The notes beneath the pieces are model-generated. The model saw nothing but the letters and a program-made list of their open reading frames with translations, had not been told where the DNA came from and did not search any database. Shown here piece by piece: positions 4,838 through 19,984 of a stretch of DNA of 20,656 nucleotides (the first letter of the stretch is position 1; the number at the start of each line of letters is the position of its first letter). The position numbers and the translations under genes were made by a program. This DNA comes from a virus: the IMG/VR virus record IMGVR_UViG_3300021405_000052, positions 1 to 20,656 of that record; one strand, written 5' to 3'.

Positions 4838-5316
4838 CCTGTTACAATCTCCTGTACAGCGTCAAATCCTTCCTCAACGGTCGGATATACGAAACTCTCT
4901 TCCATTGACTTGAGAACCCCCCTCGGGATCGTCTTGCCTGGACGCATCTGCAATCGCACGTCGTGGACTTCCTTGTCACACGTGAATACGATGGCGAGCT
5001 TCTTGTAGTGTTTTGGGGCCAAAGACAGAAGCTTGTGTCGTCCCTTGACAGTCAGGTTCGTGCGGTCGATGAAGACATTCCAGTTTGCCGCGAACGCAGT
5101 CTGAACCTGAGCGAAGAAGAGGCTCGTCGCCTCATCGATATAGTCCTTGAAAACCTGATTGTAGGTCTTACCAATGCGGAGGGCATGAGCATCGATGAGG
5201 TAGTCCGTTCCAAGCACGACAATCTGTTGCGTGCTGCGGATTTCGCAGTTCTTCTTGATCCAGACCGACTTCCCAACTCCTGGGTAGCCAACTCCAATCC
5301 ACAGATACGGGTTCAT
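4834..5316 (-). CDS. P-loop kinase resembling the polynucleotide 5'-kinase domain
   Basis: A 160-residue P-loop NTPase with Walker A in GVGYPGVGKSVWIKK near the N-terminus, a 'TD.L' segment after strand 2, and FIDRTNLTVKGRHKLL around the middle. The D-x-TN-x5-R pattern and the later MRPGKTIPRGVLKSMEESF are typical of the AAA_33/polynucleotide-kinase group, of which T4 Pnk is the best-known member. The phosphatase domain of T4 Pnk is absent, so this would be a kinase only. I chose the ATG at 5316, which has GGAG 6 nt upstream; two in-frame ATGs lie just before it. It is the first gene behind the promoter at 5338-5366. Confidence 0.82.
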   Translation of the reverse strand: MNPYLWIGVGYPGVGKSVWIKKNCEIRSTQQIVVLGTDYLIDAHALRIGKTYNQVFKDYIDEATSLFFAQVQTAFAANWNVFIDRTNLTVKGRHKLLSLAPKHYKKLAIVFTCDKEVHDVRLQMRPGKTIPRGVLKSMEESFVYPTVEEGFDAVQEIVTG

Positions 5317-5546: not shown

Positions 5547-5635
5547 TGGCTGGGGGTCTAGGGATCGAACCTAGATTTGCCGAGACGGCCCTCAGGGGTC
5601 AGAGCCCTGCGTGCTACCAATTACACCAACCCCCA
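5547..5635 (-). tRNA. tRNA-Gln (anticodon CUG) with long variable arm
   Basis: The acceptor stem TGGGGGT/ACCCCCA has the weak U1-A72 pair typical of tRNA-Gln, with discriminator G73 and an encoded CCA. The D-arm stem is GTGT/GCAC with loop AATTGGTA. The anticodon stem is CAGGG/CCCTG with loop CTCTGAC, anticodon CTG. The T-arm is CTAGG/CCTAG with TTCGATC. The variable region is 18 nt and contains a GCCG/CGGC stem with loop TCT; tRNA-Gln normally has 4-5 nt there. An AATAAATA promoter motif ends 15 nt upstream. Confidence 0.93.
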
Positions 5636-6835: not shown

Positions 6836-6943
6836 GTGCCATTTGCTGGAGAGGTAGGAGTCGAACCTACAGTGGCCTTTTGGGCACGCCTGATTAACAG
6901 TCAGGTGGGGATACCAGTTTTCCTACACTCCAGCAAATGGCAC
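6836..6943 (-). repeat. 16-bp perfect inverted repeat enclosing tRNA-Asn, followed by T7
   Basis: The arms are 6836-6851 and 6928-6943. The inner 5 bp are the top of the tRNA-Asn acceptor stem and the outer 11 bp extend it without a break. On the minus strand the helix is followed by A and then seven T residues (6828-6834), like an intrinsic terminator. Confidence 0.85.
6846..6932 (-). tRNA. tRNA-Asn (anticodon GUU), extended stem and long variable region
   Basis: The anticodon stem CCTGA/TCAGG with loop CTGTTAA gives anticodon GTT. The T-arm is GTAGG/CCTAC with loop TTCGACT. The acceptor TGGAGTG/CTCTCCA, with U1-A72 and G73, fits Asn and carries one T-T mismatch. CCA is not encoded. The D-arm is poorly paired, with an A-C mismatch. 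The variable region is 18 nt and can form an arm (GTG/CAC and CC/GG around AAAA). A 16-bp inverted repeat encloses the gene. AATAAATA ends 16 nt upstream. Confidence 0.85.
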
Positions 6944-9036: not shown

Positions 9037-9840
9037 TCACTCCTTAAAATGGTCAGGATGAACGATCATCATATCCCCTAATGGGCCAGATGTCAAGTGT
9101 TTTCTTCCTGCTGTCAATGAAAAAGAAGCAGACACAAGAAGAATGATAGCAAGAGGGTCGGTAACGCCGACAATGAGAGTAATAATCCAGCGTACCGTAT
9201 TTTCCAACTGTGTGGCGTCTGCCTTTCCGTATACAAAGTCAGCCAGATATTGTAAAGGTCCAAAGTCCGCCTCCAAGAGGTTGTTCGAATTGGTCTTTTC
9301 GACTTCCTGCTTCTTTAGATCATCGAGCGTGGATCGATGTGCCATTTCCTCTTTCGTGAGGGCGTCACGAGTTTTTCGTTGAGCACTGAGTTGGGCAATC
9401 GCCTGTCCTGCACGGCCAGTTTCAGTAAGCTTAGCGATTGCTTTGTCAAGGTTTCCAACTTGGGTCTCGTAATCTGTGATGGTAGTTTGCTCACTCTTTT
9501 CTCTCTCTTTTATAATCTCGATGCCGCTGGTCTGTCCCGCATTCGAGACTTCTTGAGCGATATGAGCCTTCGACAGCAAGCCGAAGATACCCACACTGTT
9601 GAGCAACATAAGAGTCAGGACGGCGATAATCAAGTAGGTCTTAATCAAAAATGCTGCATCGCACCAATGTCGATGGAGGAAGGCTACGCCCGCGAGCTTA
9701 CCAATTTCCAGCACACCACCAAGCACAACAACTGACCAGAAAGCTCCTGGGAAGATTGCTGTTAACCCTGTTATAGAATAAAAGGCAGAGACGCTACTAA
9801 TCGACAACGCCGCTAGGAATAGGATCGTTGTGAGGAACAT
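9037..9840 (-). CDS. Integral membrane protein with periplasmic or cytoplasmic coiled coil
   Basis: This 267-residue protein has three N-terminal hydrophobic segments (about 1-20, 30-50 with SVVVLGGVLEIGKLAGVAFL, and 66-90 with IIAVLTLMLLNSVGIFGLL). A charged helical region of about 100 residues follows (EREKSEQTTITDYETQVGNL...LDDLKKQEVEK), likely a coiled coil. A final membrane segment is near 217-243 (WIITLIVGVTDPLAIILLVS). I recall proteins of this architecture in many T4-like marine phages, with no known function. GGAG precedes the ATG at 4 nt. A role at the host inner membrane is plausible but unproven. Confidence 0.82.
   Translation of the reverse strand: MFLTTILFLAALSISSVSAFYSITGLTAIFPGAFWSVVVLGGVLEIGKLAGVAFLHRHWCDAAFLIKTYLIIAVLTLMLLNSVGIFGLLSKAHIAQEVSNAGQTSGIEIIKEREKSEQTTITDYETQVGNLDKAIAKLTETGRAGQAIAQLSAQRKTRDALTKEEMAHRSTLDDLKKQEVEKTNSNNLLEADFGPLQYLADFVYGKADATQLENTVRWIITLIVGVTDPLAIILLVSASFSLTAGRKHLTSGPLGDMMIVHPDHFKE
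9068..9096 (-). promoter_or_regulatory. Sigma70-type promoter, TTGACA-17-TATGAT, for uvsX
   Basis: TTGACA (9091-9096) and TATGAT (9068-9073) on the minus strand are 17 bp apart, inside the last codons of the upstream membrane-protein gene. The predicted start near 9061 gives uvsX a short leader with AAGGAG. Confidence 0.7.
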
Positions 9841-12503: not shown

Positions 12504-12597
12504 TGGTGAGTGAGGAAGGAGTTGCACCTTCGTTGTTCAGCACATAGGCAACGGGTTTACAGTCCGTCCCAACACATCTGGCAGTTGGCTCTCACTC
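12504..12597 (-). tRNA. tRNA-Tyr (anticodon GUA)
   Basis: The acceptor stem GAGTGAG/CTCACTC is perfect, with A73 and an encoded CCA. The anticodon loop CTGTAAA gives GTA; the stem ACGGA/CCCGT has one A-C mismatch. A long variable region fits class II tRNA-Tyr. Two oddities: the T-loop is TGCAACT instead of TTCRANY, and the D-loop (TGCCAGATGT) lacks the GG that normally contacts it. The first two bases overlap the TGA of the DNA polymerase gene, so transcription must come from within or upstream of that gene; a promoter lies at 12812-12840. Confidence 0.87.
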
Positions 12598-18765: not shown

Positions 18766-18847
18766 TGGCCCACACGACAGGAGTCGAACCTGCATCTTAC
18801 CTCCAGTTAGCTTTGGCTCCGTTCGTAGCGGAGGGGCGTACATGTGG
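18766..18847 (-). tRNA. tRNA-Arg (anticodon ACG), D-arm missing, long variable region
   Basis: The acceptor CCACATG/CGTGTGG pairs fully (one G-U), with G73 and encoded CCA. The anticodon stem CTCCG/CGGAG with loop CTACGAA gives ACG. The T-arm is GCAGG/CCTGT with TTCGACT. Between acceptor and anticodon stems only 7 nt (TACGCCC) are found, so no D-arm can form. The variable region is 23 nt and contains AGCTAACTGGAGG, which looks a little like a D-arm. Total length with CCA is 82 nt. An AATAAATA motif ends 9 nt upstream. It may be a true unusual tRNA or a decayed one. Confidence 0.72.
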
Positions 18848-19443: not shown

Positions 19444-19518
19444 TGGTGCCCCCCCAAGGACTTGAACCCTGCTCTGCTGTTTACAGGACAGCTACGTCGC
19501 CATCTACGTTTGAGGGGC
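19444..19518 (-). tRNA. tRNA-Thr (anticodon UGU) with C33
   Basis: The acceptor GCCCCTC/GGGGGGC pairs fully with one G-U, with A73 and encoded CCA. The D-stem is ACGT/ACGT with loop AGATGGCG. The anticodon stem GCTGT/ACAGC has loop CCTGTAA, giving TGT. The variable region is 4 nt, and the T-arm CAGGG/CCTTG has TTCAAGT. The base 5' of the anticodon is C instead of the nearly universal U33. CCA is followed directly by eight T. AATAAATA ends 12 nt upstream. Confidence 0.88.
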
Positions 19519-19530
19519 GTGATAGCGAAT

Positions 19531-19538
19531 TATTTATT
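19531..19538 (-). promoter_or_regulatory. AATAAATA late-type promoter before tRNA-Thr
   Basis: The motif ends 12 nt before tRNA-Thr and begins 3 nt after the closing helix of the structured RNA at 19542-19716. Confidence 0.6.
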
Positions 19539-19541
19539 GCG

Positions 19542-19716
19542 GACTTTGTGAGAGACCCACGTAATGCTCGTGGAATGTTCGAAGGCGTTCGCTAGTCGGG
19601 GTAGTTGAAGCTTACCATGGAACTTCAGCGTTTTTAACTCACCGCTAGGTACTATCTTCTCAAGCCGCCCTTATCAGCGGTGCGTCTCTTAACTTTCGCC
19701 AGTCTCTCACAAAGTC
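19542..19716 (-). ncRNA. Structured RNA closed by a 15-bp helix, unknown family
   Basis: The ends 19542-19556 and 19702-19716 are perfectly complementary over 15 bp. Inside are three hairpins: 19640-19646/19676-19682 (7 bp), 19606-19613/19621-19627 (7 bp with one bulge around CCATGG) and 19557-19561/19569-19573 (5 bp). This gives a four-way-junction-like plan of about 175 nt with no convincing gene. It starts 8 nt after the CCA end of tRNA-Leu(CAA), so the two are probably cut from one transcript. It does not resemble tmRNA, RNase P RNA, 6S RNA or a hammerhead core. Confidence 0.72.
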
Positions 19717-19724
19717 TACAATTC

Positions 19725-19811
19725 TGGTGCCCATGATAGGACTCGAACCTACACGCCCTTGCGGGCAGAGCATTTTGAGTGCTCCGCGTCTACCAATTCC
19801 GCCACAAGGGC
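19725..19811 (-). tRNA. tRNA-Leu (anticodon CAA)
   Basis: The acceptor is GCCCTTG/CATGGGC with one T-T mismatch, A73 and encoded CCA. The anticodon stem GAGCA/TGCTC with loop CTCAAAA gives CAA. The class II variable arm is TGCCCGCAAGGGCGT-like, and the T-arm is GTAGG/CCTAT with TTCGAGT. It reads UUG. The first base directly follows a structured RNA, so it needs processing from a longer transcript. Confidence 0.95.
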
Positions 19812-19971
19812 ATGGACGAAGGATGGAGCATAGAGGCGTACTCTATGGTTTTGAAGCCCCCTCTCCTTACGGCAAGAGAACATCCACCCATATTAGCTGC
19901 GGGGGTAGGCACTGCCCCTACCATTAACGGCACAAAAAGCCGCTGTCCTATACTTACGACGACCCGCAAAA
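19812..19971 (-). ncRNA. Structured leader RNA ahead of tRNA-Leu(CAA), unknown family
   Basis: About 160 nt lie between an AATAAATA promoter and tRNA-Leu(CAA), with no gene. In transcript order there is a 6-bp helix 19963-19968/19898-19903, enclosing hairpins 19939-19942/19928-19931 and 19917-19922/19904-19909 (6 bp). A 5-bp helix 19881-19885/19821-19825 follows, enclosing a short stem near 19861-19878 and a perfect 7-bp hairpin 19841-19847/19829-19835 with a 5-nt loop. Two helical domains follow each other. The first begins at about the expected transcription start. Confidence 0.62.
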
Positions 19972-19976
19972 AAGAT

Positions 19977-19984
19977 TATTTATT
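19977..19984 (-). promoter_or_regulatory. AATAAATA late-type promoter before the structured leader
   Basis: The motif lies 9 nt before the first helix (19968) of the structured RNA that leads into tRNA-Leu(CAA). TAATAAATA is present in full, but here the TAA is not the stop of the upstream gene. Confidence 0.6.

Follow-up and report, generated by a model that had tools for sequence, protein, structure and literature searches.

Which RNAs are encoded between the T4-type late promoter motif at 19984-19977 and the tRNA-Leu(CAA) gene, and do they represent a leader of this tRNA or units in their own right? The window (the whole stretch of DNA analyzed, 20,656 nt) represents part of the genome of a T4-like myovirus and contains a gp43 DNA polymerase, a UvsX-like recombinase and late motifs of the sequence AATAAATA. 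Judged by gp43, the closest isolates belong to the phiM12 group of Sinorhizobium phages (37% identity), and a megablast search of the window against phage records gave no match. In IMG/VR, a single close relative was identified, contig L003 (86% identity in gp43), whereas the next relatives reach 33-39%. On the minus strand, the order of the region is AATAAATA, domain 1, domain 2, tRNA-Leu(CAA) and a 175-nt element. The features of the window are:

19977..19984, minus strand: T4-type late promoter motif AATAAATA (from the motif count in the window and the layout shared with L003)
19897..19969, minus strand: domain 1, 73-nt tRNA-like cloverleaf (from the fold, shuffles, covariance models and the hairpin family)
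19905..19921, minus strand: T-arm-like hairpin GTAGGGGCAGTGCCTAC of domain 1 (common to a 72-nt family in L173 and L186-L196)
19821..19889, minus strand: domain 2, closing helix GGGUGGA/UCCAUCC with two hairpin arms (predicted fold)
19725..19811, minus strand: tRNA-Leu(CAA), CCA encoded (tRNA search)
19542..19716, minus strand: 175-nt 3′ ncRNA element with a perfect 15-bp closing helix (fold)
19531..19538, minus strand: next late motif AATAAATA, upstream of tRNA-Thr (motif scan)
19447..19518, minus strand: tRNA-Thr(TGT) (43.3 bits, 53.8 bits)

The motif AATAAATA occurs eight times in the window compared to 0.57 expected copies, and all eight are located on the minus strand. The distance between motif and tRNA was found to be 15 (Gln), 16 (Asn), 9 (Arg-like), 13 (Leu-TAG) and 12 nt (Thr). 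A preliminary description of this DNA had placed the other motifs 9-16 nt from tRNAs, which is borne out by these five gaps, one of them to a tRNA-like Arg gene. The same layout, with one late motif per tRNA, is present in L003. The motif at 19531-19538 is the predicted promoter of tRNA-Thr(TGT), a gene that was overlooked by ARAGORN and by an Rfam scan at the gathering threshold.

For the motif at 19984-19977 the distance to tRNA-Leu(CAA) is 165 nt, and this promoter had been regarded as an exception to the common spacing. The rule is not really broken, because domain 1, which is itself tRNA-shaped, begins 7 nt after the motif. According to the spacing in T4, transcription would start (+1) near 19971. 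Between 19977 and 19811, neither a further late motif nor a sigma-70-like promoter was detected by sequence scan, and a sigma-70 promoter near 19811 was accordingly rejected. The proposed order of ncRNA, tRNA and ncRNA behind one late promoter is thus seen in the sequence.

The predicted fold of the 173-nt leader has an energy of −59.6 kcal/mol (z about −2.2 to −2.3; 4 of 200 shuffles as good), a stability only moderately above chance. Folded separately, domain 1 reaches a z-score of −2.7 and domain 2 of −2.8; for domain 1, the plus strand folds equally stably. The earlier claim of a two-domain RNA of about 160 nt ending exactly at the tRNA holds for the two folded domains, but not for the end, since the closing helix of domain 2 stops at 19821 and is separated from tRNA-Leu by 9 nt (TTCGTCCAT). 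Domain 2 scores 7.2 bits against the tRNA model described below and is not recognizable as a tRNA. A selenocysteine tRNA was rejected for this domain: the Rfam model RF01852 gives 18 bits against a gathering threshold of 47, which is chance level, and both the T arm and the anticodon stem are missing.

Domain 1, a tRNA-like cloverleaf

The predicted fold of domain 1 consists of a 7-bp acceptor, a 2-nt linker, a 3-bp D-stem (D-arm UCGUC..UAGGACA), an anticodon-type arm with the 7-nt loop UUUUUGU, in which UUU takes the anticodon position, and the T-arm-like hairpin GUAGG-GGCAGUG-CCUAC, again with a 7-nt loop. The cloverleaf, its 7-bp acceptor and the length of 7 nt in both the anticodon loop and the T loop correspond to canonical tRNA geometry, and only 2 of 1,500 dinucleotide shuffles of the leader folded into a cloverleaf of tRNA size in which two loops had 7 nt. 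Canonical sequence marks are absent: the D-loop GUAAGUAUAG has no GG, the T-loop GGCAGUG no TTCRA and the 3′ end CUA no CCA.

For comparison, a tRNA covariance model was built from 32 tRNAs of the phage and its relatives, and the whole window was scanned without filters. Domain 1 scored 19.8 bits, with an E-value of 2.4e-4 for the entire window, compared to 48-68 bits for real tRNAs, and ranks directly behind the tRNAs and an Arg gene lacking the D-arm. It was called neither by ARAGORN nor by Rfam. A model of the leader only was also searched in other T4-like phages, where its best matches are tRNA-Gln (L046, E 4e-9) and tRNA-Glu (L043, E 1e-6), owing to the D-arm UCGUC..UAGGACA and the variable region that are in common. 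Phage tRNA-Gln and tRNA-Glu share the cloverleaf, this D-arm and the variable region with domain 1, which differs from them in the missing TTCRA T-loop, D-loop GG and CCA, in its loop UUUUUGU and in its lower score. The most likely ancestor of domain 1 is a Gln/Glu-type tRNA whose features of translation were lost while the fold was kept.

Weak matches of the leader model were found in L173 (E 0.05) and L178 (E 0.22), both of which carry GTAGGGGNAGNNCCTAC and a GCGG/CCGC acceptor. The hairpin pattern was followed in IMG/VR, where the scan resulted in 12 contigs, all 12 with a tRNA-like family of 72 nt:

L173 3990-4062 and copies in L186-L196: 72-nt tRNA-like family (12 viral contigs; hairpin pattern scan)

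Ordinary tRNA genes adjoin 11 of the 12 copies, and no tRNA was called near the copy in L189. The family, from marine viral contigs, resembles domain 1 in its acceptor TTGCGG../..CCGC, the hairpin GTAGGGGNAGNNCCTAC and the tRNA size. Its T-loop is non-canonical (GGAAGNU), U33 is absent, and complete contigs show a tail of the UCCA type. A comparison of six members revealed two compensatory changes in their anticodon-type arm. In the alignment, domain 1 shares with the family the hairpin next to the GCGG/CCGC acceptor and the location beside tRNAs, but neither the anticodon-type arm nor the tail: UCCA and a 7-bp arm in the family stand against CUA and a normal 5+7 arm in domain 1, and the remaining sequence is different. 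The link is based mainly on one hairpin and this acceptor, spotted after the fact. Kinship of domain 1 with the family is only probable, because the hairpin match is post hoc, the rest differs and the family itself was not scored as a tRNA by the tRNA model.

Structured RNAs beside phage tRNA genes

The 175-nt element at 19542-19716 starts 8 nt after the CCA of tRNA-Leu. As previously proposed, it is a real structure, with a perfect closing helix of 15 bp (22 bp with one mismatch) and a z-score of −3.7; the other strand is equally stable. No match was obtained by blastn against 50,697 phages, and no homologue was found with a model of the element (R2) in 20 complete records and loci totaling about 1.9 Mb or by a pattern search with its exact core. 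The leader gave only short chance-level matches in blastn against the same 50,697 phages. When IMG/VR was searched for tRNA-Leu D-arms preceded at 150-180 nt by a late motif, 10 contigs emerged, none of them homologous, and the upstream 76-aa protein was tried as a search anchor and rejected. A single copy of the exact leader and element is known, which leaves no covariation to count. The contig of the close relative L003 is cut off just 3′ of the region: its tRNA-Leu(TAG) is preceded by 50 nt of sequence, and the region of interest is absent from it.

Long closing helices were also sought in tRNA-flanking sequence, which revealed further structured RNAs:

L046 6460-6611: long-helix ncRNA between tRNA-Leu and tRNA-Met (closing-helix scan)
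L052 6305-6460 and 7302-7466: long-helix ncRNAs beside tRNAs (closing-helix scan)

The RNAs at L046 6460-6611 and L052 6305-6460 are mutually homologous, about 150 nt in length and closed by a helix of 19-22 bp. Among their 31 shared base pairs, 20 are unchanged and 11 are changed on both sides, with no one-sided change. These 11 compensatory versus 0 one-sided changes are good evidence that tRNA-neighboring ncRNAs of this type truly exist in T4-like phages and are subject to selection. The L046 copy had no match in phage records and none in Rfam at the gathering threshold. Similar to the 175-nt element, these RNAs have a long perfect closing helix and are located directly 3′ of or between tRNAs. 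Their interior is unrelated to that of the element, and they are structural analogues, not homologues. In the same T4-like viral contig, L046, an Rfam abiF RNA (RF03085) was found at 9625-9661.

GOLLD, ROOL and other phage ncRNAs in Rfam are structured and encoded near tRNA genes, but are several times longer. They share this location with the RNAs of the window, for which no Rfam match above threshold was obtained. In the tRNA cluster of T4, rnaC (139 nt) and rnaD (119 nt) follow tRNA-Arg. Their products RNAC and RNAD are reported to be late RNAs with a yet unknown function (PMC9697503). These RNAs (the species 1 and 2 stable RNAs) are structured ncRNAs of about 120-140 nt directly after a tRNA in the cluster, and the RNAs of the window are likewise located in a phage tRNA cluster. 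In T4, both follow tRNA-Arg with no adjoining late motif, whereas in the window ncRNA is found on both sides of the tRNA. Pairwise scores suggested that rnaC might be related to domain 2 or the element (0.01-0.2 level). This kinship was rejected by a profile search of the rnaC family (the only profile used) against leader and element, which gave no match. Since the likeness is merely suggestive in pairwise comparison and fails in the profile search, the arrangement in the window is regarded as the same kind as that of RNAC and RNAD, and not as an established representative of one of the two T4 families. On this comparison, RNAC and RNAD are the closest known kind, and the RNAs of the window may be a new version of the stable RNAs that T4 encodes beside its tRNA genes. 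Decades after their discovery, RNAC and RNAD still lack an assigned function, and similar RNAs in distant T4-like phages provide comparative material.

Proposed RNA operon and alternative readings

With a probability of roughly 0.55, the region represents a short late RNA operon of a tRNA-like RNA, domain 2, tRNA-Leu(CAA) and the 175-nt ncRNA, which is cut by tRNA enzymes. The motif, the folds, the tRNA-likeness of domain 1 and the order and spacing of the units are observed. The name 'structured leader', used in the preliminary description, is probably wrong: since a cloverleaf of the tRNA type makes up its first half, the unit more closely resembles a small operon of tRNA and ncRNA than a leader fused to a tRNA. 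The late promoter at 19984-19977 would transcribe domain 1, domain 2, tRNA-Leu(CAA) and the 175-nt ncRNA in turn, and tRNA-processing enzymes of the host would cut the transcript into units. As for any tRNA, RNase P cleavage is expected at 19811/19812, on the 5′ side of tRNA-Leu, and might also occur 5′ of the domain 1 cloverleaf, whereas 3′ exo- or endonucleases would act at the CCA end. The tRNA would supply leucine for UUG codons in late infection, and the flanking RNAs would resemble RNAC and RNAD as stable by-products or non-coding RNAs. Co-transcription, processing, stability and a non-translational role are what we infer in this model. RNAs that are linked to a late promoter and partly tRNA-shaped raise the question of which products other than tRNAs arise from phage tRNA clusters.

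As the main rival explanation, domains 1 and 2 may be what is left of decayed tRNAs (one of the Gln/Glu type and another) that were formerly located between the late promoter and tRNA-Leu, and would now form no more than a transcribed spacer that RNase P removes. The D-arm and variable region of Gln/Glu type, found together with the loss of the D-loop GG, the TTCRA T-loop and CCA, fit such a decay, as does the quick turnover of tRNAs, the content of which shifts fast between the window and L003. However, none of the four stems of domain 1 is broken, although random decay would hit stems first, and other phages have kept the unusual T-arm hairpin as well, so that we consider decay the less likely account, if a serious one.

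A true structured 5′ leader, which aids or regulates maturation of tRNA-Leu while the tRNA serves as a processing module for both flanking RNAs, is improbable. One late promoter followed by two stable domains, the tRNA and a closed ncRNA, with not more than 9 nt on either side of the tRNA, would agree with it. Domain 1 is better read as a tRNA-like unit at tRNA spacing from the promoter, the other tRNAs of this phage need no leader, and conservation was not seen. Chance folding of a GC-rich spacer without RNA function would account for the low z-score of the whole leader and the equally stable other strand of domain 1, but is very unlikely considering the rarity of the two-7-nt-loop cloverleaf among shuffles, the E-value in the tRNA model and the hairpin shared with other phages.

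Beyond the operon reading, domain 1 and the 72-nt family could be late-expressed, non-translating tRNA mimics of T4-like phages that are released, alongside a second ncRNA, from a tRNA operon; we consider this a long shot. Such mimics may, for example, act as decoys or resistant substitutes against anticodon nucleases of the host. Intact phage tRNAs were shown to act against tRNA-targeting defense systems (PMC11555353), and tRNA-like decoys, if true, would bear on this use of tRNAs.

Other irregular tRNA genes

A tRNA-Arg(ACG)-like gene without D-arm is located at 18769-18847 (minus strand) of the window, at 366-444 in L003, 313-406 in L018, 1464-1543 in L019 and 5136-5237 (minus strand) in L020. 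It was missed by ARAGORN, is near-identical in the window and L003 and is conserved in further T4-like contigs. The gene consists of the acceptor, the anticodon arm CTCCG-CTACGAA-CGGAG, 20-27 nt with the D-loop-like AACTGGA, the T-arm and CCA. This order suggests that the arms were swapped, with the D-loop-like piece placed after the anticodon arm.

Seven contigs (L005, L006, L008, L009, L010, L012 and L014) encode tRNA-Leu-like genes with the 5′ half TAGTCAGGTGGCGGAATTGGTAGACG and a long or odd insert replacing the anticodon arm; in all seven, AATAAATA is found 150-180 nt upstream. The leaders in L005 and L012 have TACCACNAGGCTTCCCAT..GAACAGCTCACTTG in common. A similar gene with a long insert and a different acceptor is present in L011.

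In the window, a tRNA-Tyr missed by ARAGORN directly follows gp43 (12507-12597, minus strand). The tRNA-Gln (5547-5635) and tRNA-Asn (6845-6932), both on the minus strand, have long variable arms and a size of 88-89 nt, while their counterparts in L003 are 74-75 nt in length.
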